This document shows, piece after piece, positions 5,758-42,747 of a stretch of DNA of 64,000 bases. The first letter of the stretch is position 1; every line of letters starts with the position of its first letter. The position numbers were made by a program, and so were the translations under genes. Location: contig JAHBWZ010000001.1 in the NCBI GenBank assembly GCA_019636755.1, positions 1 through 64,000 on the forward strand. The letters are read 5' to 3'. This DNA is from Phycisphaeraceae bacterium. GTDB lineage: Bacteria; Planctomycetota; Phycisphaerae; Phycisphaerales; SM1A02. Below the pieces are notes generated by a model. The model saw only the letters and a program-made list of their open reading frames with translations. It was not told where the DNA came from and searched no databases.

Positions 5758-6464
5758 GGGTAGGACGCCCCTGCCGCGACCAGTTCCGACTCGTGCGCGG
5801 GACTCGGAACGTGGACGACCCGATCCACGAAGATGCCCGGCGTGACGACGGCCTCCGGGTCGATGTCACCCGGCGGCACCACGTCTGACGCCTGCACGAT
5901 CGTGATCCTGCCCGCCATCGCCATGAGCGGTCCGAAGTTCCGCGCGGTCCGGTTGTAGACCAGGTTGCCGTGGCTGTCGGCCCGCCGCGCCTTGATCAGC
6001 GCGAAGTCCGCCGTCAGTCCGTGCTCCATCAGGTACTCGCGATCGCCGAAGCGGCGGTGTTCCTTGCCTTCGCCGAGCGGCGTCCCGACCGCGGTCGGCG
6101 TGTAGAAGGCCGGGATGCCCGCGCCGCCCGCCCGGATGCGCTCGGCCAGCGTGCCCTGGGGAACGAGTTCCAGCCGCGTGTACCCGCTTCGATAGAGTCC
6201 GGGGAAGACGGTGGAGTTCGCGGTGCGCGGGAACGAGCAGATCATCTTCGCGACGCGACGCGCCTTGAGCAGCGCCGCCAGTCCGACCTCGCCGCTGCCG
6301 CAGTTGTTGCTGATCACGGTGAGGTCGCGCGCCTCCTGGTCGATGAGCGCGTGGATGAGTTCGATCGGACTGCCGGCTTCGCCGAAGCCGCCGATCATGA
6401 CGGTCGCGCCGTCGTGGATGTCCGCGACCGCCGCGGCCGGGCTCGCCACCCGCTTGTCGATCAT
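5754..6464 (-). CDS. 3-oxoacid/acyl CoA-transferase subunit A, 236 aa
   Basis: Alpha subunit of the same class I CoA-transferase (ScoA/AtoD/YodR type). The N-terminus has the CoA-binding motif VMIGGFGEAGSPIELI, followed by LTVISNNCGSGEVGLAALL, and a LIKARRADSHGNLVYNRTARNF block typical of the family (residue positions about 160-182). The ATG at 6464 is chosen because it overlaps the kamA-like stop (ATGA) and begins exactly with the conserved domain (MIDKRVASP). The frame stays open further upstream but only as a shadow of the aminomutase gene. It works with the adjacent subunit B; the reaction moves CoA from an acyl-CoA donor to a free organic acid. Confidence 0.9.
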   Translation of the reverse strand: MIDKRVASPAAAVADIHDGATVMIGGFGEAGSPIELIHALIDQEARDLTVISNNCGSGEVGLAALLKARRVAKMICSFPRTANSTVFPGLYRSGYTRLELVPQGTLAERIRAGGAGIPAFYTPTAVGTPLGEGKEHRRFGDREYLMEHGLTADFALIKARRADSHGNLVYNRTARNFGPLMAMAGRITIVQASDVVPPGDIDPEAVVTPGIFVDRVVHVPSPAHESELVAAGASYP

Positions 6465-7924
6465 GCAGGGATGCCCGCGGCGGCGCACCCGCCCGTGCTC
6501 ACCGGGGCCAGGCCCGGCTTCCTGACGCGCGTGTAGTCGTAGAGGCCCGCCTCGTCGAAGAGGACGCGATCGTCGTAGCCGTCGAACCAGAGCGCCTCCG
6601 GGTTGCGGCCGACGATGCAGACCTTGCCGCGGTCGGAGGCGCGGCCCGCGTTCCGCAGGATCTTGAAGATGACGACGCCGTTCTCGCTGCCGGCCAGCCC
6701 CGGGATCGGCCTGCTGGTCACGGCGTTGACCTCGGTCTTGCCCTTGTAGTGCGTGATCGAGAGCCGGGCGTGGGTCTCGACGCCGGAGAGTCCCTTCTGG
6801 GACTCGTTGAGCACGTTCCACGCGGTCTCGATCGGGACGTTGAAGGCCCGGTACGCGACGATGTCCCGGCCGCAGAAGAAGTAGTGATTCTCCGCGCCCG
6901 CCCGCTTGATCTCCCGCTGCAGGATGCGCAGCGCGTCCGGATCGTCGTTGATGCCCTTGATGATGGGCGCCTGGTTCTCGACGGTCAGCCAGCCGCGCGA
7001 GACGAGATCGCGCATCGCCTTCCCGGTGGCCGGGACCCACTGCTTGAAGCCCTGGGCGTCCTCGATGTAGTGGCCGTCGGGATCCTTGGCGAGGAACTCA
7101 TCGGGATGCTCGAAGTGCACCATCATGTGGAGACCGACCTGCGGATAGGTCTCGTGGAACCGGTCCAGCATGGCGAGGAAGGGCGCGTCGAACCGCTGCG
7201 GGTAGAACGCCATTTCCTTCGTGCCGATGCGGATCGACTCGACGTCGGACTCGGCCAGCGCCGCGAGCCAGGCACCGAGCTTCGCGTTGTTGAGCACCAT
7301 CGGGTCACCGCCGGACAGCAGGATTTCGCGCAGTTTCTCGCGGCCGCTCTCCGGATGCACGCCGCCGTTCCGGGCGACGGCCTCGTTGTGTGCCCGGATG
7401 TACGCGGTGATCTCCGGGATCTGCGCCAGGCCCTTCTTCGCGACCGTGCCGTCCTGCCGCTTGATCTCCTTCCGGGCGATCAGTTCCTCGCGGTAGCAGA
7501 AGCGGCAGTGCGCCGAGCACGTGGACACCACGTACATCAGGCCCATCTCGTACTTGTGCAGCAGGCCTTCGACGGGGCTGTAGTCCATCTGGAAGCCGGG
7601 GTCCTCGGACCCGGCGAGGTCCCTCGTCTCGTCCGGGCTGGCCTTGACGATGCGCTGGATGGCGGCGCTGTGTCTGGCCAGTTCGTAGTAGTGCCGGGTG
7701 ATCTTGACCGGCATGCGCGACTCCACGTCGCGCTCGCTGCCCTTGAGTACACGCAGCTGAACGATCTCGTCCGGGCTGTAGAAGTTGAGCATGTCCGCCG
7801 GGGCGCGCTCGTCGAAGAACGGCGCGAGCCCGTTGATGATCTCGCGCACGTACTTCGGATCCTCGATACCGCCGAGGAACGCCTGTTCCCGTTCGGTGGG
7901 GACATAACCCTGCTTCTGAATCAT
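6461..7924 (-). CDS. kamA: KamA-family radical SAM 2,3-aminomutase, 487 aa
   Basis: Radical SAM enzyme of the lysine 2,3-aminomutase family. The 4Fe-4S motif CSAHCRFCYR (Cys136, Cys140, Cys143) is followed by REILLSGGDPMVL, typical of the family. Known members use SAM, PLP and an iron-sulfur cluster to move the amino group of L-lysine or L-glutamate from C2 to C3. The usual PLP-binding PGGGGK segment near the C-terminus is replaced by ITHYKGKTEV, which keeps GKT but not the glycine run. The substrate therefore should not be taken as lysine. First gene of an operon with CoA-transferase A/B and an aminotransferase; all junctions overlap. The symbol is family-level only. Confidence 0.85.
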   Translation of the reverse strand: MIQKQGYVPTEREQAFLGGIEDPKYVREIINGLAPFFDERAPADMLNFYSPDEIVQLRVLKGSERDVESRMPVKITRHYYELARHSAAIQRIVKASPDETRDLAGSEDPGFQMDYSPVEGLLHKYEMGLMYVVSTCSAHCRFCYREELIARKEIKRQDGTVAKKGLAQIPEITAYIRAHNEAVARNGGVHPESGREKLREILLSGGDPMVLNNAKLGAWLAALAESDVESIRIGTKEMAFYPQRFDAPFLAMLDRFHETYPQVGLHMMVHFEHPDEFLAKDPDGHYIEDAQGFKQWVPATGKAMRDLVSRGWLTVENQAPIIKGINDDPDALRILQREIKRAGAENHYFFCGRDIVAYRAFNVPIETAWNVLNESQKGLSGVETHARLSITHYKGKTEVNAVTSRPIPGLAGSENGVVIFKILRNAGRASDRGKVCIVGRNPEALWFDGYDDRVLFDEAGLYDYTRVRKPGLAPVSTGGCAAAGIPA

Positions 7925-8487
7925 GGACGGGGCTCCCGGGGGAGTGGGGTGGTGGTCGCGGGTGGCGAGGGCCGCCGGACGCGGTCGGACCTGGCGCGAA
8001 ACGCGGGCGGGTACCAGCGTACCGCGCGGTACCGCGAAGACAATGGACGCCGGACTCGGATCGGAGGGCGGCCGATGGTGATCGGCTTCATCCGGCGCCG
8101 TGATCGACAGATTGATCGTACGGGGTGCGCGGGGCCGGAGGCGCTGCCGTCATGACACCCGGGCCGCCGCGGGTCCATCGGCCCGCGCGCTCACCCGGTT
8201 TCCGGACCGGCGTCCGGTGGTGGTTCCCCGGGGGTCGGAGTCGGCCGAGGCCGGCGGTCGACGGGGCGCCCGCGGTTCCGGCACCCGGGCCGGGGAACCG
8301 CGGGCGATCGCGGTGGCCAGATCTGGAGATCAATGTCTAGAATCGACCGTCCGTCGCAACGACCCTCGACACGTCGCCGGCACGGCCGGCCCGATGGCGG
8401 GCTGGCACTCCGGGGGTCCGTTGTGCCGGCCGTCCCCCCCACTCCCTGCCTCCGCCGGCACACACCCACCCCCGGACGCCCATCGCC
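7925..8487. other. Divergent intergenic region with a 14-bp palindrome
   Basis: This 563-base region separates the minus-strand kamA operon from the plus-strand RIC gene and should contain both promoters. A perfect palindrome GTACCGCGCGGTAC lies at 8019-8032, about 95 bases upstream of the kamA start, and could be an operator. A possible -10 (TAGAAT) is at 8338-8343, without a convincing -35. No gene was recognised. Confidence 0.4.
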
Positions 8488-9294
8488 ATGCGGAACCCCC
8501 GAACCCTCGCCGTTCTCTCCACAGTCACCGCCGTCCTCGCCGCCTGCACCGCCGCACCGGATCAGCGCACCGGCGCCCTCCCGGCTCCGGAAGCGGCGGC
8601 GGCTGCCTGGAACGAGCAGACGCCCGTCGGTCGGATCGTGCGCGACCAGCCGGAGACGGCGCGGATCTTCGCCCTCGTCGAGATCGACTACTGCTGCGGC
8701 GGCGACGCGTCCCTGGGAGAGGCAGCGGCCGCGAAACAGGTCAACGTGCACCGGTTGCTCAACGCACTCGCCGCGGTCCGCGGAGGCCCGGTCGACGGGG
8801 CGACGCAGGTCCTGCCGCACGCGACGGTCGACGACCTGATGACGCACATCATCGATGTCTACCACGCCCCGCTGCGCCGTGACCTGCCGGACCTGGAGGA
8901 CCGCATCGCCACCGTTGTCCGTGTCCACGGTGACGGACATCCGGAACTGCCGGAGGTCCAGGTGACGTTCCGGGCGCTGCGTGCCGGCATGGAGCAGCAT
9001 CTGCAGGTCGAGGAAGCGCGTGTCTTCCCGGCGATCGCCCACCTGGCCGCGGGCAGGCCGGTCGATGCCATGGAGCCGATGATCCAGGCGCTGTACGATG
9101 ATCACGACGAGGTGGCCGCGGCACTGCAGACCCTGCATCGTCTCACGAACGGCTATGCGCCCCCGACCCGCGCCTGCGCGCTGTACCGCGGCGTGCTTCG
9201 CGATCTCGACCATCTGGAGCGACAGACCATGGCGCACGTGCACCTGGAGAACCAGGTCCTGCTGCCCAGGGCGCGTGCGATGCTTCCCCGATGA
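8488..9294 (+). CDS. RIC/YtfE-type di-iron protein with a lipoprotein signal, 268 aa
   Basis: Residues from about 43 match the RIC (YtfE/ScdA) iron-sulfur cluster repair family. An N-terminal ScdA-type domain contains the hallmark IDYCCGGDASLGEA (Cys69, Cys70). A hemerythrin-like four-helix domain follows, with candidate iron ligands in HIIDVYH, MEQHLQVEEARVFP (His171, Glu175), LYDDHDEV and MAHVHLENQVLLP. Known family members act in the cytoplasm to repair Fe-S centres damaged by nitric oxide or oxidants. Here the protein opens with a good signal peptide and lipobox (VLAAC, Cys20), so it should be anchored outside the cytoplasm. That is unexpected for the family. No Met near residue 40 offers a cytoplasmic start. 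Confidence 0.85.
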   Translation: MRNPRTLAVLSTVTAVLAACTAAPDQRTGALPAPEAAAAAWNEQTPVGRIVRDQPETARIFALVEIDYCCGGDASLGEAAAAKQVNVHRLLNALAAVRGGPVDGATQVLPHATVDDLMTHIIDVYHAPLRRDLPDLEDRIATVVRVHGDGHPELPEVQVTFRALRAGMEQHLQVEEARVFPAIAHLAAGRPVDAMEPMIQALYDDHDEVAAALQTLHRLTNGYAPPTRACALYRGVLRDLDHLERQTMAHVHLENQVLLPRARAMLPR

Positions 9295-14581: not shown

Positions 14582-15445
14582 ATGTCAGAGGAGGCGACTC
14601 CGTACAGGGTGCTGCGATACCGCGACGACCGGCCGGCCGAGCCTGCGCACGAGGAGGTTGCCCGGGAGGCGCCGCTCATCATCCGGCTGGCCGGGCGCGA
14701 TGTGGGCGTGACGATGCGGACGCCGGGCCATGACGCGGAACTCATCCCGGGTTTTCTCTTCGGTGAAGGCGTCATCGCGCGGCGCGCCGATGTCCGGGCC
14801 ATCCACCCGTGCGATGCGGCCGCGGGTGACTGCCTGGACGTGACGCTGGCGCCGGGCGTTCCGGTGGACTTCGCGCGGCTCAGCCGGCACGTGTTCGCGT
14901 CGTCGAGTTGCGGCATCTGCGGCTCGGTCAGCATCGAGCGCCTTCGGGCGCGCGTTTCGAGGGCGGGAGACGGGCCGCGCCTGGACCCGGCCGTCATCCA
15001 TGCCCTGCCCGGCTCGCTGCGCTCGGCGCAGCCGACGTTCGACCGTACGGGCGGTCTGCACGCGGCCGCGCTGTTCGATGCGGACAGTCGTCGCCTGGTG
15101 GTGCGGGAGGACATCGGGCGTCACAACGCTGTGGACAAGGTCGTGGGTCATGCCCTCTGGTCGGAGATGCTGCCGCTCGTCCGGCACATCCTCCTGGTGA
15201 GCGGCCGGGCATCGTTCGAGATCGTGCAGAAGGCCGCCTGCGCGGGGATCCCCGTCGTGGCGGCGGTGTCGGCGCCGTCGTCGCTGGCGATCGACCTGGC
15301 GCGCGACCTGAACATGACGCTCATCGGATTCCTCCGCGACGGACGGTTCACCGTCTACGCCGGCGCGGAGCGGCTCCGCGCATCCCAGGGGCGCGCGGCG
15401 GGGATCACGGATCCCGCCGCGCACGCGGATCGTCCGCCGGGGTGA
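14582..15445 (+). CDS. fdhD: Formate dehydrogenase accessory sulfurtransferase FdhD, 287 aa
   Basis: FdhD carries sulfur from the IscS desulfurase to the molybdenum cofactor of formate dehydrogenase, an essential activation step. The family Cys pair CGIC (Cys110, Cys113) lies in the flexible loop SSSCGICGSVSIE. Other family blocks are the opening APLIIRLAGRDVGVTMRTPGHDAELIPGFLFGEG region (30-63), EDIGRHNAVDKVVGHAL (about 178-194), and ILLVSGRASFEIVQKAACAG with PSSLAIDLA. Length is normal. It is convergent with fdhA, 30 bases apart, so enzyme and maturation factor lie together but on opposite strands. Confidence 0.95.
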   Translation: MSEEATPYRVLRYRDDRPAEPAHEEVAREAPLIIRLAGRDVGVTMRTPGHDAELIPGFLFGEGVIARRADVRAIHPCDAAAGDCLDVTLAPGVPVDFARLSRHVFASSSCGICGSVSIERLRARVSRAGDGPRLDPAVIHALPGSLRSAQPTFDRTGGLHAAALFDADSRRLVVREDIGRHNAVDKVVGHALWSEMLPLVRHILLVSGRASFEIVQKAACAGIPVVAAVSAPSSLAIDLARDLNMTLIGFLRDGRFTVYAGAERLRASQGRAAGITDPAAHADRPPG

Positions 15446-15475
15446 CGACCGGGGACGAGGCGCCGGGGCCCGTGA

Positions 15476-18187
15476 TCACGTCGCTGCTTCCTCCGCCGGC
15501 GACAGCGCCACCGCCACGACCTTGTAGTCCGGGCAGCGGCTGGTCGGGTCCGTGTACGGGCCGACGACGCGATTGGTCTGCGTCTGCGGGAAGTGGAACG
15601 AGAGGAACACGGTGCCCGGGATCATCCGGCGGGAGAGCCTGGCCGGTGCGACGGCCTGTCCCCAGCGGCTCGTGATGCGGACGCGCGCGCCGTCGTGGAT
15701 GCGGAGCCTGGCGGCATCCTCCGGGTGCAGTTCAAGGTCGTCCTGCCCGACGAGCGCGGCGCTGGGTGTCCGGCGCGTCATCGTGCCCACGTTGTAGTGA
15801 TCGAGCACCCGCCCGGTGATCAGCACGTACGGATGGCTCCCGTCCGTCGCGTCCTGCGGCGGCGCATACTCGACGCACATGAGCAGCGCCCGGCCGCGGA
15901 CGAAGCCGTCGGCGTGCACGGTCCGCGTGCCGGGATGGTCCGCATCAGGACAGGGCCACTGCAGGCCGTCCGCGCCCAGTCGCGCATACGACACGCCGCC
16001 GAAGAGGTGCGGTGCCACCTGCGCCAGTTCGTCCATCACCTCCGACGGCCGGGTGAACGCCCAGCGTCCGTCGCGTCCGGACATCGCCCGCGCGACGTCG
16101 CGGATGACCTCCCAGTCCGGGCGCGCCTCGCCCGGCGGCGGCACCGCCGCGCGGACGCGCTGGATGCGCCGCTCCCCGTTCGTGAACGTGCCGTCCTGCT
16201 CGAAGACCGACGCCGCCGGGAAGACGACGTGGGCCCGCCTGGCGGTTTCCGTCAGGAAGAGCTCCTGCACGATCAGCAGGTCCAGGCTCTCCAGGGCGCG
16301 CAGGACGTGCGTGGTATTCGGATCGCTCTGCGCCACGTCCTCGCCCTGGATCCACAGGGCCCGGAGGCGTCCGGCGACGGCGGCGTCGTACATCTCCGGG
16401 ATCGTCATCCCCGGCTCCGCCGGTGGTGCCGCGCCCCAGGCCGCGCGGAGGCGCGCCTGCACCTGCGGATCATCCGGCTTCAGGTAGCCCGTGAGCGCGT
16501 AGGGCTGCGCGCCCATGTCGGCGTTGCCCTGCACGTTGTTCTGTCCCCGCAGCGGCAGCATGCCCGCGCCGCGCCGTCCCAGTGAGCCGGTGAGCAGCCC
16601 GAGGTTGCAGTACGCCATGACGCCGGCCACGCCCTGCGTCTGCTCGGACAGCCCGAGGCCGCTGATGAAGAGGCCCGGACCGCGCGAGCCGATGATCCGT
16701 GCGGCCTTCCGGACCAGGTCCGGCGGGACGCGCGTGACGGTCGCCATCCCGTCCAGCGACTGCCGGCGCAGGAACGCGCGCAGCTCGTCGAAGCCTTCAC
16801 AGCGCCCGGCGACGTAGGACTCGGCGCAGAGCCCCTCCTCGATGAGCACCTTCGCGAGCGCATTGAACAGCACGACGTTCGAACCCGGCCACGCGGGCAG
16901 GTGGACATCCGCGTACGCCGCGAGTTCGATCCGCCGCGGATCGATCACGATGAGCGCTGCGCCGCGGAGCGCCGCCTGCCGGATGCGGGCCCCGACGACC
17001 GGGTGGGCCTCGGTGGGATTCGCCCCGGCGACGACGAGAAGCCCGGCCTCCTCCAGGTCCGCGTAGGACGCCGTCGCCGCGCCGGTGCCCGTCACGAGGC
17101 CCAGGGCGACCGCCGTCGAGGAGTGGCAGACGCGCGCGCAGCAGTCGGTGTTGTTCGTGCCGATGACGCTCCGGAAGAGTCTCTGCAGCAGGTACGCCGC
17201 CTCGTTGGTCGATCGCGAGGAGGTCATCGTTCCCAGCGCGTCCGCCCCGTCCCGGTCCCGGATCTCGAGCAGTCGACGGGCGGCGAACGCGATCGCCTCG
17301 GACCAGGTTGCCGGCCTGAATCCGCCGCCGCGGTCGCGGAGCAGCGGCGTCGTGAGCCGGTCGGCCGAGTGGTGGAACGCGTGCGCGTAGCGACCCTTGA
17401 CGCAGAGATGGCCGCGGTTCACCGCGGCATCACGGACGCCCGTCACCCGGAGGACGATGCCGTCCGCGGACTCGACGTGTCCGCGGCAGCCGACGCCGCA
17501 GTATCCGCACACGGAGTCGACCGCGCGATCGGACCGCGCGCCGCCCGACGGGACCCGGTCCCGATCGGTGATCGCGCCGGTCGGGCAGACATCCACGCAT
17601 GCGCCGCAGGCGACGCACGCGCTGTCGGCGAAGCGGTCGGTCGGGCCGTAGATGAGCCGCGCCGCGCCGCCGCGTCCCTCGATGCCGTACACGAACTGTC
17701 CCTGGACCTGCTCGCAGGCATTGAGACAGAGCCGGCAGGTGATGCACTTCGACCGGTCGAACCGCATGTAGGGATGGCTCTCGTCCATCGCCGGGCGCGG
17801 CGCGCTGGAGGCGACCTCCGCGGGAACGTCGTACGCCGCGAGCAGGCGCTCGAACCGGGTGCCCGCCGGGTCCGGCCGGACGGCATCGGCGGGCAGCGCG
17901 GCGCGCATGAGCGACAGGAGGCTCCGTCGTGTGTGTCGCAGTCGATCGCCGGTGGTGCGCACGATCATGCCGGGCGCGATCGGCGTGTGGCACGCCGCCT
18001 GCGGTCGCTGGCCATCGATCTCGACCAGGCAGAGCCGGCAGCCGCCCTCCGGCGCGAGTGCATCGGCGTGGCAGAGCGTCGGGATGTCGATCCCGTGCTG
18101 CGCGGCGACGGACAGGATCGTCGCGCCCGCCCGGACGGGGACCACGCGTCCGTCGATCGTCGCCGTGGGGGGCGGAGGATCGCTCAT
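15476..18187 (-). CDS. fdhA: NAD-linked formate dehydrogenase catalytic subunit, 903 aa
   Basis: Mo/W-bis-MGD oxidoreductase that oxidises formate to CO2. Domains in order are: N-terminal 2Fe-2S (Cys39, 50, 53, 66); two 4Fe-4S clusters (about Cys148-158 and Cys191-201); the proximal 4Fe-4S (Cys227, 230, 234, 262); then the molybdopterin domains and a C-terminal MGD-binding domain (ITGRVLDHYNVGTMTRRTP). The metal ligand is Cys354 in CCARVCHSS, not selenocysteine. The N-terminal ferredoxin-like region is the one found in cytoplasmic, NAD-reducing enzymes. The start overlaps the fdhB stop (ATGA), implying coupled expression. No TAT signal, so it acts in the cytoplasm. Confidence 0.93.
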   Translation of the reverse strand: MSDPPPPTATIDGRVVPVRAGATILSVAAQHGIDIPTLCHADALAPEGGCRLCLVEIDGQRPQAACHTPIAPGMIVRTTGDRLRHTRRSLLSLMRAALPADAVRPDPAGTRFERLLAAYDVPAEVASSAPRPAMDESHPYMRFDRSKCITCRLCLNACEQVQGQFVYGIEGRGGAARLIYGPTDRFADSACVACGACVDVCPTGAITDRDRVPSGGARSDRAVDSVCGYCGVGCRGHVESADGIVLRVTGVRDAAVNRGHLCVKGRYAHAFHHSADRLTTPLLRDRGGGFRPATWSEAIAFAARRLLEIRDRDGADALGTMTSSRSTNEAAYLLQRLFRSVIGTNNTDCCARVCHSSTAVALGLVTGTGAATASYADLEEAGLLVVAGANPTEAHPVVGARIRQAALRGAALIVIDPRRIELAAYADVHLPAWPGSNVVLFNALAKVLIEEGLCAESYVAGRCEGFDELRAFLRRQSLDGMATVTRVPPDLVRKAARIIGSRGPGLFISGLGLSEQTQGVAGVMAYCNLGLLTGSLGRRGAGMLPLRGQNNVQGNADMGAQPYALTGYLKPDDPQVQARLRAAWGAAPPAEPGMTIPEMYDAAVAGRLRALWIQGEDVAQSDPNTTHVLRALESLDLLIVQELFLTETARRAHVVFPAASVFEQDGTFTNGERRIQRVRAAVPPPGEARPDWEVIRDVARAMSGRDGRWAFTRPSEVMDELAQVAPHLFGGVSYARLGADGLQWPCPDADHPGTRTVHADGFVRGRALLMCVEYAPPQDATDGSHPYVLITGRVLDHYNVGTMTRRTPSAALVGQDDLELHPEDAARLRIHDGARVRITSRWGQAVAPARLSRRMIPGTVFLSFHFPQTQTNRVVGPYTDPTSRCPDYKVVAVALSPAEEAAT

Positions 18188-19848
18188 GCGGATGCCTCCG
18201 GAAGCGACTGCGCCGCGGACATCTCCAGGATGGTCCGGATCGGTCCCGGCGTCTCCCGCCCGAAGGCGCAGAGACTCGCATCCTTCATGAGCGCCATGAT
18301 GTGCCCCAGTTCGGCGAGCGACGCGCCGGCGAGTCCACCGTGTACCAGTTCATGCGCGCGCCGGGAGCCCAGGCGGCACGGCACGCACCGGCCGCAGGAT
18401 TCATCGCGCATGAAGGTCACCAGGTGGCGCAGAATCATGGCCCGGTCGGTGCCCTTCGGAATCGCGACCATGCCGCCGTGCCCCAGGTTGATGCCGAGGC
18501 GTGACATCGCGGCGAAGCAGATGGGGGCATCCCAGAGATCCGGTGTCACGAGGCTGCCCATGGGGCCGCCGAGGAGAACCGCCTCGAGTTCCGTCCCGTC
18601 CCGACCCCCGCCCGCCAGGGTCTCGATCGCATCGCGCAGCGTCACGCCGAACTCCACTTCCACGATGCCCGGACGCGCGAAGCCGTGATTGAAGCAGAGC
18701 GCCTTGGTGCCGCGACTCTCCGCGGTCCCCAGCGCCGCGAACGCGGCGGCGCCGTGCACCAGGATCCAGGGCACGTTCGCCAGCGTCTCCACGTTGTCCA
18801 CCACCGTCGGCCGCCCGAACAGGCCCGCCTCGACCGGGTAGGGCGGCCGCGGCGAGACCTCGCCGCGCCGGCCTTCGATGGCCGCGAGCAGCGCGGTCTC
18901 CTCTCCGCACACGTACGAACCCATGCCGCGGACGACCTCCACGGTGAAGGACCGCTGCGGTCCCAGGCAGTCGGTCCCGAGCCGACCGGCGCGGACGGCG
19001 CTGTCGATCGCGCCGGTCATCACCCGCGCCGCGACCGGGTACTCGGAACGGATGAAGACGATGCCGCGCGCGGCGCCGACCGCGTGCGCCGCGATGGCCA
19101 TGCCCTCGAGGATGGCGTGCGCGTCGCGCTCCATGAGTTCCCGGTCGATGAACGACCCCGGGTCGCCCTCGTCGCCGTTGGCCACGATGAACCGCAGTGG
19201 TCCGGGTGCCGCGGCCGCGAGATCCCACTTCCGTCCCGTCGGAAACGCGGCGCCGCCCCGGCCGCGCAGTCCGGCCGCGCTGACCGCGTGCCGGACGGCG
19301 GCGGGCGGCCGTGCGAGCGCGGCCCGGAGCCCGGCGTAATCGGGCGCGGGATCGACCGGCGCGGTCGTCCGGCCGAGGCGCGCGGTGATGACGGCGTGGC
19401 GCGCGGTGCACCGGATGGACGGCGGTTCCGGGTGCGGAGGCTCGGCGCCGGCGCCGCAGAGCGCGGTCGAGGCGGCATCGAGCCGCGGGATGACATGGTC
19501 CCGGGCCGTCATCGCCACCGGCGAACGATCGCAGTAGCCGAGACAGTACACGGGACGGCACGGGTGTTCCGCGCCGATCGTCCGGGCGATGTCCGCGCCG
19601 CCGGCGAGCGCGCAGGACAGTCCCGCGCACACCCGGACGGCGCGCGGGTCAGAGACGGCGTCCTCGAAGGTCGACAGGGCGCCGCGCACGGCGGCGATCG
19701 GCAGATGGACCGACTGCGCCAGCCGGTCCATCGCCGGTGCATCCATGCGCGGTTCCTCCGCGACCGCGGCGTGAAACTGCGGCAGCGCGGGCGTCATCGC
19801 ATTTTCCCGGTCGTGGGCGGCGCGGTAGGTGCTGGCTCGTCCGGTCAT
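18184..19848 (-). CDS. fdhB: Formate dehydrogenase NADH-oxidoreductase subunit (NuoE-NuoF fusion), 554 aa
   Basis: This subunit passes electrons from FdhA to NAD. The N-terminal third is a NuoE-like 2Fe-2S thioredoxin fold (VRVCAGLSCALAGG and VYCLGYCDRSPVAM, the C-x4-C and C-x3-C pattern). The rest is NuoF-like: GLRGRGGAAFPTGRKW (NADH), ANGDEGDPGSFIDRELM (FMN), GMGSYVCGEETALL, and a 4Fe-4S motif ESCGRCVPCRLGS with the fourth Cys in DASLCAFGRE. The ATG at 19848 gives the longest form; an in-frame ATG at 19797 (MTPALPQF) is equally possible. It lies 45 bases after fhs and overlaps fdhA by 4 bases, so fhs-fdhB-fdhA form one operon. Confidence 0.92.
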   Translation of the reverse strand: MTGRASTYRAAHDRENAMTPALPQFHAAVAEEPRMDAPAMDRLAQSVHLPIAAVRGALSTFEDAVSDPRAVRVCAGLSCALAGGADIARTIGAEHPCRPVYCLGYCDRSPVAMTARDHVIPRLDAASTALCGAGAEPPHPEPPSIRCTARHAVITARLGRTTAPVDPAPDYAGLRAALARPPAAVRHAVSAAGLRGRGGAAFPTGRKWDLAAAAPGPLRFIVANGDEGDPGSFIDRELMERDAHAILEGMAIAAHAVGAARGIVFIRSEYPVAARVMTGAIDSAVRAGRLGTDCLGPQRSFTVEVVRGMGSYVCGEETALLAAIEGRRGEVSPRPPYPVEAGLFGRPTVVDNVETLANVPWILVHGAAAFAALGTAESRGTKALCFNHGFARPGIVEVEFGVTLRDAIETLAGGGRDGTELEAVLLGGPMGSLVTPDLWDAPICFAAMSRLGINLGHGGMVAIPKGTDRAMILRHLVTFMRDESCGRCVPCRLGSRRAHELVHGGLAGASLAELGHIMALMKDASLCAFGRETPGPIRTILEMSAAQSLPEASA

Positions 19849-19893
19849 GTCGACACTCGCGGCGTGCGGAAGGTCCGTCCGTCCCGGGACCCG

Positions 19894-21789
19894 TCAGAAG
19901 AGTCCCTCGATGCGACCGGACACGGGATCGAGGTCCACGTCCATGAAGGCCGCCCGCGGCGGCAGCCCCGGCATCGTCCGCATCGAGCCGACGAGCGGAT
20001 AGATGAAGCCCGCGCCGACGGACGCCCGCACATCACGGATCGTGATCCGGAAGCCCTCCGGCGCGCCCTTGAGATCCGGATCCTCGGAGAACGACAGGTG
20101 CGTCTTCGCCATGCAGACAGGGAGCCGGCCGTATCCCAGGTCCGTGTAGAGCCGGATCCGCTCGGATGCCTCCGGTGCATACGACACCCCGGCGGCCCCA
20201 TAGCTTCTCGCGATCGATCCGATCTTCTGCTCGATGGAATCCTCGTCGGCATACAGCATGCGGAATGCGCCGGGCTGGTCGCAGGCGTGGATCACCGCCT
20301 CTGCCAGGTCACAGGCGCCGAGCCCCCCGTCGGCCCACACCGAGGTCTTCACCGCGCTCAGCGCGCCGGCCTCGATCGAGGCCCGCCGGACCAGGTCGAT
20401 CTCCTCATCCGTGTCGGTCGTGAAGGCGTTGACCGCCACCACGACGGGCACGCCGTACTGGCGCACGTTCCGGATGTGCCGGAGCAGGTTCGGCAGCCCT
20501 GCTTCCACGAGCGCGGTGTTGCCGGTCGTGTACGCGGCGTCGATCGGCCGGCCGGCAACGACCTTCGGTCCGCCGCCGTGCATCTTGAGGGCGCGGATGG
20601 TGGCGACGATGACCGCGCAGTCCGGCGCGAGGCCGCTCGTCCGGCACTTCAGGTTGGCGAACTTCTCGAAGCCGATGTCGGATCCGAAGCCCGCCTCCGT
20701 CACCACGTAGTCCGCCAGCCGCAGCGCGATCCGGTCCGCGATGACCGATGAGTTCCCGTGCGCGATGTTGGCGAAGGGCCCGGCGTGCACGAAGACCGGG
20801 GTCCCCTCCAGCGTCTGCATGAGGTTGGGCATGATCGCGTCCCTGAGGAGCACGGTCATGGCGCCGGCGGCGCCGAGGTCGTCCGCGGTGACCGGCCGTC
20901 CACTGCGATCGAACCCGACGACCATGCGGCGCAACCGGTCCCGCATGTCTTCGAGTCCCGTGCTGAGTGCGAGCACGGCCATGACCTCGCTGGCGACGGC
21001 GATGTCGAAGCCGGTGGTGCGCGGGTGGTTCTCCTCGGGGCCGAGACCGATCCGGATCTGCCGGAGCATCCGGTCATTGACGTCCAGCACGCGGTTCCAC
21101 GTGATCGTGTCCGGATCCACGTCGAGGCGGAAGACGGACCGGACATGGTCATCGGTGAGCGTGTCCGGCGCGCCGGCCGGAAGGCCGAGGCGGGTCATGC
21201 GCCGCAGGTGGCACGCCGCGGGAACCGGTCGGCCGTCGCGACCCCGGCGGCACTGGGCGAGCATCAGCTGGCGGTCGTCGGGATGCGTTGCCTCGTAGAG
21301 CATCCGCGTGTCCAGCGCCGCCGCGAGCAGGTTGTTCGCCGCGGTGACCGCGTGCGTGTCGCCGGTCAGGTGGAGGTTGAAGTCCTCCATCGGGATGACC
21401 TGGCTGTAGCCCCCTCCCGCGGCGCCGCCCTTGATGCCGAACGTCGGTCCCATGGAGGGCTGCCGGATGCATGTGAACGCCCGCCGCCCGAGGTGGGCCC
21501 CGAGCGCCTGCGCCAGCCCGACGGTGACCGTGGTCTTCCCCTCTCCCAGAGGCGTCGGCGTGATGGCGGTCACGACCACGTACTTCCCCTGCGGTCCCTG
21601 GGCCAGCCGATCGCACACGGAGAGGTGGACCTTCGCCTTGGTGTGGCCGTATGGCTCGATCTCGTCACGGCGCAGTCCGAGGTCGTCTGCGATCCCGGTG
21701 ATCGGAAGCGGCGTGGCGGCCTGTGCGATCTCCAGGTCCGACGGAACGGGGCGCTTCAGCATGAGCGGCGCGCGCTCGGTCCGGGTCAT
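19894..21789 (-). CDS. fhs: Formate-tetrahydrofolate ligase, 631 aa
   Basis: Catalyses ATP-dependent formation of 10-formyl-tetrahydrofolate from formate, the entry of formate into C1 metabolism. Visible signatures are the N-terminal [12 protein letters not shown], the P-loop [39 protein letters not shown], and [16 protein letters not shown]. The family C-terminus ([20 protein letters not shown] with a terminal IEGLF) is intact. Some 70 residues are longer than the usual 555-560, part of it around the divergent [21 protein letters not shown] stretch (about 200-220), so an insertion is likely. Start at 21789 (MTRTERAPL) is chosen; MLKRPV at 21761 is an alternative. Directly followed by the formate dehydrogenase genes. 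Confidence 0.93.
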
Positions 21790-21907
21790 GGCGGGTGCGG
21801 ATGCGGATGTTCGAAGCATGCGGGGCCCTGCCGGTCGACTGGTGCCGTCCGGATCCTACATCGTGCATCCGGCCTCGAAACCGGGAGAATGCCCCGATCC
21901 GCGCGCG

Positions 21908-41643: not shown

Positions 41644-42747
41644 ATGCATACCTCGGCTCGAACCGGTTCCGGACTCGCCGCGCTCGTCTTCTCGGTACTC
41701 GCCCTGGCTGGCTGCCAATCGGCGTCCACCGGGGTGGCACTCCAGCCGGATGCTGGCGCGTCCGTCAGGACTGCGGCGATGCCCGACGCGAATCTCGCGG
41801 AGTTGACATACCAGTTCCGGCAGTCGATCGAGGTCCGGGACGTGCCCGCGTCCGCAACGACCGTCCGGGTCTGGCTGTGGCTTCCGAACGACGAGGGACA
41901 GAGCGTGCTCGATCTCCGCGTCGACGGAGCGCCGGCCGGATTCCGGGTGATCGACCCCACAGGGTCCGGTGACCGGGCGGTTGTGGTCGAGGTTCCCGGC
42001 GGTCGCGCGGGCGACCTGCGGATCTCGACCGCGGCGCTCGTCCGGCGGTCCGAGGTTCGATCCGTCGCCGACCCCTCGCTGGCGGGTCCGATCACCGAGG
42101 TCCACCGCAAGGCATTCGCCGAAGACCTGCGCGGGGACGTTCCGTACATGCAGGTGACCGCCGACATCCGGGCGCTGGCCGATCGCATCTGCGGGACCGA
42201 GTCCAATGTCCTGCTGCAGGCGCGTGCGCTGTACGACCACGTCATCGATACGACCGATCACTACTCCAGGAAGACCGCCCCCGCCTCCTCGTCGGGCTGC
42301 CATGAGCACTGTCGTGCCCATGGCGGCGGATCCTGCACCGACATGCACAGCCTCTTCATCGCCCTCTGCCGGGCACGTGGCATTCCGGCCCGCATCTGCT
42401 TCGGGTCGCGGCTCCAGCCGAAGAACGAGGGCGCGGAGCACGATCCGGGCTATCGCTGCTGGGCCACCTTCTTCTGCCCCGGCCTGGGATGGCTCCCGTG
42501 CGATGTGGCTGCGGGCGACACCGTGGAGGGTGGTCGGGACACCTACTTCGCCGGGCTGGATGCGAACCGTCTGTGCTTCGTCCGGGGCCGCGATCTGCAG
42601 CTCGGCAAGGACGGTCCCCGTGTCAACATCGTGACCCGCGCCGCGTGGGTCGAGGTGGACGGTGTTCCGCACGATGCGTTTGCGCGGACGGTCTCGTTCC
42701 GGACGCTGGATCGATCGACGACCGCACGGGCGCAGGCCGCGCGGTGA
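41644..42747 (+). CDS. Transglutaminase-like lipoprotein with altered active site, 367 aa
   Basis: A lipoprotein signal ends in a good lipobox (LALAGC, Cys24). A beta-sandwich region (about 55-165) precedes a transglutaminase-like fold. The catalytic Cys is Cys231 in GGSCTDMHSLFIALCRARGIPAR. The Asp of the triad is Asp287 in GLGWLPCDVAAG. At the position of the usual His before the conserved Cys-Trp (normally HCW or HAW), this protein has Arg271 (GYRCWATFF). Extra Cys and His (GCHEHCRAHGGG, 218-229) precede the nucleophile and might bind metal. The change suggests a non-catalytic or modified enzyme. Start at 41644 is preferred; ATG 41632 gives four more residues. Confidence 0.85.
   Translation: MHTSARTGSGLAALVFSVLALAGCQSASTGVALQPDAGASVRTAAMPDANLAELTYQFRQSIEVRDVPASATTVRVWLWLPNDEGQSVLDLRVDGAPAGFRVIDPTGSGDRAVVVEVPGGRAGDLRISTAALVRRSEVRSVADPSLAGPITEVHRKAFAEDLRGDVPYMQVTADIRALADRICGTESNVLLQARALYDHVIDTTDHYSRKTAPASSSGCHEHCRAHGGGSCTDMHSLFIALCRARGIPARICFGSRLQPKNEGAEHDPGYRCWATFFCPGLGWLPCDVAAGDTVEGGRDTYFAGLDANRLCFVRGRDLQLGKDGPRVNIVTRAAWVEVDGVPHDAFARTVSFRTLDRSTTARAQAAR

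Follow-up and report, generated by a model that had tools for sequence, protein, structure and literature searches.

A RIC Gene With a Predicted Lipoprotein Signal

The window, a stretch of 64,000 nucleotides from a Phycisphaeraceae bacterium, contains on its forward strand, at 8488..9294, a gene for a 268-residue protein of the RIC/YtfE/ScdA family (window RIC), predicted to be exported. The gene is defined by its open reading frame, whose stop codon lies within these coordinates, by its Pfam domains and by the sole start codon before them. The protein carries the feature typical of bacterial lipoproteins, a signal peptide with a lipobox ending in cysteine. The predicted lipoprotein signal peptide (residues 1–19, 8488..8544, +) reads MRNPRTLAVLSTVTAVLAA up to the cleavage site ahead of C20 and combines an n-region bearing R2 and R5 with the hydrophobic core LAVLSTVTAVLA. 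The lipobox LAAC occupies residues 17–20, as the preliminary description of this DNA had noted when it pointed out the frame and a VLAAC lipobox. The codon of Cys20, the predicted lipidation site, lies at 8545..8547 (+); this assignment draws on the sequence, on a cysteine in the same alignment column of the homologue L036, and on a separate lipobox in the homologue L096. An Ala/Pro-rich linker of 20 residues (residues 21–40, 8548..8607, +) leads from Cys20 to Trp41, and its residues 24–38 are modeled with low confidence by AlphaFold2.

A lipoprotein rule, which demands a net positive n-region, a 12-residue hydrophobic core, and the motif [LVI][ASTVI][GAS]C, was passed at 4 of the 1964 starts in the real window, namely by the RIC gene, by a transglutaminase-domain gene at 41644, and, at 21638, by one ORF with two passing starts. 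In five random windows drawn from a first-order Markov model, none of the 7255 starts passed. The gene at 41644-42744 (+) encodes a transglutaminase-core protein with a clear lipoprotein signal of its own (LAGC). The window RIC is likely located in the cell envelope, with predicted lipid anchoring outside the cytoplasm.

An internal start that yields a cytoplasmic form had been named beforehand as an objection to this prediction. From the upstream stop to the domain, ATG 8488 is the sole in-frame ATG, GTG, or TTG codon. An internal cytoplasmic start was rejected because translation table 11 offers no usable codon for it, the next candidate (the GTG of V51) being situated inside the ScdA_N domain. 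ATG 8488 lacks a visible Shine-Dalgarno sequence upstream, and the third-position GC content of the signal and linker (0.80) barely exceeds that of the upstream in-frame stretch (0.76), so that there is no codon-bias step at this codon. The start call therefore rests on missing alternatives and on homologues, not on codon bias. Upstream of the gene, the best FNR-like box has 3 mismatches in 10 positions and was discarded as support; one sigma-70-like match at 8314-8343, where 0.1 is expected, was not taken as support either.

Domain Architecture and Di-Iron Site

The order of ScdA_N followed by a hemerythrin-like domain, which marks RIC proteins, was found in the window RIC with both Pfam domains scoring over their cut-offs. 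ScdA_N (DUF542, PF04405, E 2.1e-16) spans residues 44–97 (8617..8778, +), and the hemerythrin-like di-iron domain (PF01814, E 3.2e-16) spans residues 118–262 (8839..9273, +). The CCGG motif (C69 C70 G71 G72) is encoded at 8692..8703 (+); its two cysteines occur in 6/6 members of the clade described below and in 100/100 other RICs. By reference to the ligand numbering of YtfE (PMC9268430), the di-iron ligands are H126, H171, E175, H206, H250, and E254. These six columns are invariant in 106/106 aligned RIC domains, and four His and two Glu ligands together with vicinal cysteines are found in all six clade members. The RIC identity proposed earlier from the CCGG signature and the hemerythrin-like ligands is hence upheld. 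Over the whole NCBIfam model TIGR03652, the window RIC scores 204.4 bits, the cut-off of 204.7 being 0.3 higher; clade member L096 reaches 230.7 bits.

The AlphaFold2 model, computed with an alignment of 28 rows, has a mean pLDDT of 85.8. A Foldseek search with it retrieved the YtfE/ScdA fold, as all 12 PDB matches at E<=0.001 are YtfE or ScdA chains. YtfE from Escherichia coli (PDB 5fnn, 7bha) is alike in fold (TM 0.91 to 5fny in Foldseek, normalized by target length), in ligands, and in the Cys pair. YtfE is a cytosolic iron donor and nitrite reductase with E125 and E159, the glutamates of the iron exit channel, whereas the window RIC keeps neither: Gly167 (8986..8988, +) aligns with E125, the residue to which PMC8117158 assigns a role in iron donation, and Asp205 (9100..9102, +) aligns with E159. 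ScdA from Staphylococcus aureus (PDB 9r7j, 9j47), the best PDB sequence match (E 1.9e-35), shares the two domains, the CCGG motif, and the six ligands, and it carries the same G/D pair at the E125/E159 positions. The ScdA sequence in the PDB aligns from its residue 5, leaving no space for an export signal. Features of the window RIC that set it apart from ScdA are the lipoprotein signal, the tether of 20 residues, W41, and L63.

A Clade of Export-Type RICs in Planctomycetota

Homologues were gathered from overlapping source sets: relatives (16/61 genomes matching), the family (23/181), named genomes (30 loci), the order (100/400), the phylum (160/392), and the family of genome G580 (8/12); the order of G580 (10/17) and the class (93/397) were added later. 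From 122 matching frames in the loci gathered first, we retained 106 distinct full-length RIC domains after dropping partial or identical rows. Six of them are export-type RICs, all from Planctomycetota: the window RIC (genome G000), L036 (also L004; genome G019, same family as the window genome), L037, L038 (Mariniblastus), L039 (also L095; genome G634), and L096 (G580). They form one clade with an SH-aLRT of 98 in the tree of 106 rows, and with a bootstrap of 100 and an SH-aLRT of 97 in a tree of 51 rows; for both trees, the first three residues were removed along with the N-terminal extension. The clade is rare, being represented by the four genomes G000, G019, G580, and G634 and the named records L037 and L038. 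A census of the class by score brought no further member: after the 418 bits of the window gene, the next match reaches 263 bits, as compared with 385 bits or more for G580 and G634.

The survey for other lipoprotein RICs suggested by the preliminary description thus yielded a clade in which three of the six members carry a lipobox Cys (LAAC in the window RIC, MASC in L036, and AGAC in L096). L036, whose ATG is preceded by GGAGG, shares the lipobox Cys in the same alignment column and a homologous linker with the window RIC. In L037, L038, and L039, the N-termini resemble signal peptides or anchors but lack the lipobox Cys, and ATG codons are also present between signal and domain in L036 and L037. 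A strict export rule is passed by 5/6 clade members vs 0/100 other RICs, L038 failing because its n-region is net neutral; a relaxed rule is passed by 6/6 vs 1/100 (L057). As judged from these N-termini, the predicted export trait is a property of one clade and not of one protein.

Among 16 RICs read later, of which eight were hand-picked, mostly for a frame or match reaching far upstream, and which therefore do not make a fair sample, two passed the relaxed signal rule and one the strict rule (L138, lipobox-like; L147, anchor-like). Both fall outside the clade and were left ambiguous, since a purine-rich stretch followed by an ATG at the domain offers each of them an internal start. If real, their putative export signals would be separate gains of export. 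In L138 (1477-2355, +), a lipobox-like FSGC lies in frame upstream of the likely internal start, which may reflect a dual start or a separate gain. The ATG of L147 (25-1235, +) overlaps the stop codon of a gene whose end resembles that of a heme-copper oxidase (NCBIfam match of 20 bits) and may be that of an NO reductase.

Residue Changes Accompanying Predicted Export

The clade differs from other RICs within the domains as well, although the following counts are not phylogenetically independent, since the six members share one ancestor. From Trp41 to the end, all six contain exactly three cysteines (C69, C70, and C230 in window numbering), as compared with 7/100 other RICs having three and 93/100 having four to eight. 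We count this apparent depletion in favor of export, as an independent trace of an oxidizing compartment. W41 and L63 mark the clade, occurring in 6/6 members each vs 1/100 and 0/100 others, respectively. The column of YtfE E125 reads A/A/A/S/G/E in the clade vs E or D in 96/100 others, the Glu being lost in five of six members; at the E159 column, D occurs in 5/6 vs 7/100. L039 retains E/E at both positions. Cytosolic-type RICs of Planctomycetota, e.g., the neighbor of L096 in G580, have family and phylum in common with the window RIC but lie outside the clade; their start codon sits beside the domain, and most of them have E/E at 125/159 and more cysteines.

According to PMC8117158, YtfE needs E125 for iron release and for cluster building on IscU, and the E125L and E125N substitutions abolish iron donation to IscU. 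The loss of the Glu in most of the clade argues against a YtfE-like iron-donating repair protein. However, whereas E125L blocks the channel, the small residues at this position may keep it open.

Genome Context

The window RIC is the only RIC that we found in its genome, listed as 99.43% complete. A second, cytosolic RIC was rejected, as the protein search returned only this gene and the PF04405 search only this gene and an NnrS-type fusion. The latter (L002:1444-3096, -; G000 contig C1 near 649208-649366) is a membrane protein of the NnrS family whose C-terminus holds a ScdA_N-like domain; this domain scores 23.5 bits, below the cut-off of 32.5, and has its own Cys pair (TCCS). NnrS is an NO-stress factor, and our literature search found no combination of NnrS with DUF542. 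In the window genome we found no Hcp, no NirK over cut-off (a 37-bit fragment match lies below it), and no NO-reductase-type oxidase, both PF00115 matches being aa3 and cbb3-type oxidases. A partner in a nitrite/NO pathway is thus not evident in the genome.

Next to the window RIC, we recognized neither an operon partner with an obvious NO function nor a signaling gene. Divergent from it, at 6461-7924 (-), lies a gene for a KamA-like radical SAM protein of 487 residues, which is weak to all aminomutase models (best 85.6 of 199.2 bits). A formate dehydrogenase-type cluster at 14585-21819 includes a molybdopterin subunit and a NuoE/NuoF-like subunit; presumably it also holds the genes for FdhD and formate-tetrahydrofolate ligase. 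The neighborhoods of L036–L039 have nothing obvious in common. In G580 (L096:1492-3662, -), a TetR-type regulator, a cytosolic-type RIC, and the lipoprotein RIC adjoin, with gaps of a few bases and of about 40 bases; a third RIC sits on another contig. The pair is as expected if its members were to serve two compartments.

Possible Functions of a Probably Exported RIC

The role of RIC proteins is disputed between Fe-S repair by iron donation (PMC8117158) and the formation of NO from nitrite (PMC9052748). YtfE is described as a nitrite reductase in PMC9052748, and PMC12412097 reports that ScdA reduces nitrite. The bacterial RIC activities discussed in the relevant parts of PMC9268430, PMC9052748, and PMC12412097 are cytoplasmic, consistent with the earlier statement that characterized RICs reside there. 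Our searches of the open-licence PMC literature, together with the portions consulted of PMC9268430, PMC9052748, PMC12412097, PMC8117158, PMC5701242, and PMC2556348, brought up no exported bacterial RIC. The nearest case by description is RIC2 of Trichomonas vaginalis, a eukaryotic RIC paralogue said to have a signal peptide and reported as nuclear, DNA-binding, and devoid of a di-iron centre (PMC9268430).

We favor, with close to even confidence, a window gene encoding an exported, lipid-anchored family member that acts on nitrite/NO, and not a cytosolic Fe-S iron donor. As predicted from the sequence, the Sec signal would be cleaved ahead of Cys20 and Cys20 lipidated. A flexible tether of about 20 residues would then keep the ScdA_N and hemerythrin domains on the outer face of a membrane. 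Conservation and the model show that the H4E2 di-iron site is retained in full, as is the Cys pair of ScdA_N. By analogy with YtfE (PMC9052748) and ScdA, this site could carry out nitrite/NO chemistry. A role as cytosolic Fe-S iron donor is disfavored because the protein would be outside, is the only RIC found in the genome, and has Gly in place of the iron-release Glu of YtfE. Taken by itself, the proposed function, nitrite/NO chemistry by a di-iron protein anchored in the envelope, is tentative, and we rate it somewhat below an even chance. Several points count against the favored reading. An exported Cys pair would depend on a thiol donor in the envelope, failing which it would remain oxidized, and the vicinal cysteines could lock as a disulfide. 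The predicted lipidation is not conserved across the clade, three of the six members lacking the Cys. That ScdA is active with G/D demonstrates compatibility, not specificity. Of the functions suggested in the preliminary description, NO chemistry is favored in the form of nitrite/NO chemistry, while repair by YtfE-like iron donation loses ground with the E125 Glu, absent in 5/6 of the clade.

Alternatively, the di-iron site might bind, sense, or buffer NO or O2 in the envelope without catalytic turnover, which we consider unlikely. The three kinds of N-terminal attachment in the clade would keep the domain on the membrane or close to it, and the aa3 and cbb3-type oxidases of the genome imply that oxygen supply may matter; no linked signaling gene was recognized beside the window RIC. 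Di-iron sites bind NO and O2, but RIC-type bundles differ from O2-binding hemerythrins (both PMC9268430).

An iron donor or Fe-S repair protein of the envelope, keeping the RIC function for exported iron or Fe-S proteins such as Rieske, hydrogenase, or formate dehydrogenase subunits, would agree with the full di-iron site and fold, yet appears distinctly improbable. We know of no IscU-type scaffold in the envelope, and clusters are normally inserted in the cytosol, before Tat export. Iron donation is described for YtfE (PMC8117158), but E125 is lost in five of the six clade members.

That the N-terminus is a chance extension of a cytoplasmic protein is very improbable: the weak start context and the possibly fortuitous signal-like sequences upstream of the internal ATGs of L138 and L147 would allow it, but the window gene has no alternative start, export-type N-termini follow one clade, the clade is depleted in Cys, and L036 has the homologous lipobox Cys and linker.

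The broader proposal that Planctomycetota moved RIC to the envelope as a lipid-anchored di-iron nitrite reductase or NO protein is, in our view, somewhat unlikely as a whole. If true, a RIC that lacks the iron-exit Glu but has the di-iron site and the Cys pair would show that a role in nitrogen-oxide chemistry is possible without cytosolic iron donation. A clade with predicted export that has lost the iron-exit Glu in five of six members but otherwise retains the family features, with one member as the sole RIC found in its genome, offers a natural test between the repair and nitrite models. An exported RIC would also extend the envelope nitrite/NO enzymes by a candidate that uses neither heme nor copper.
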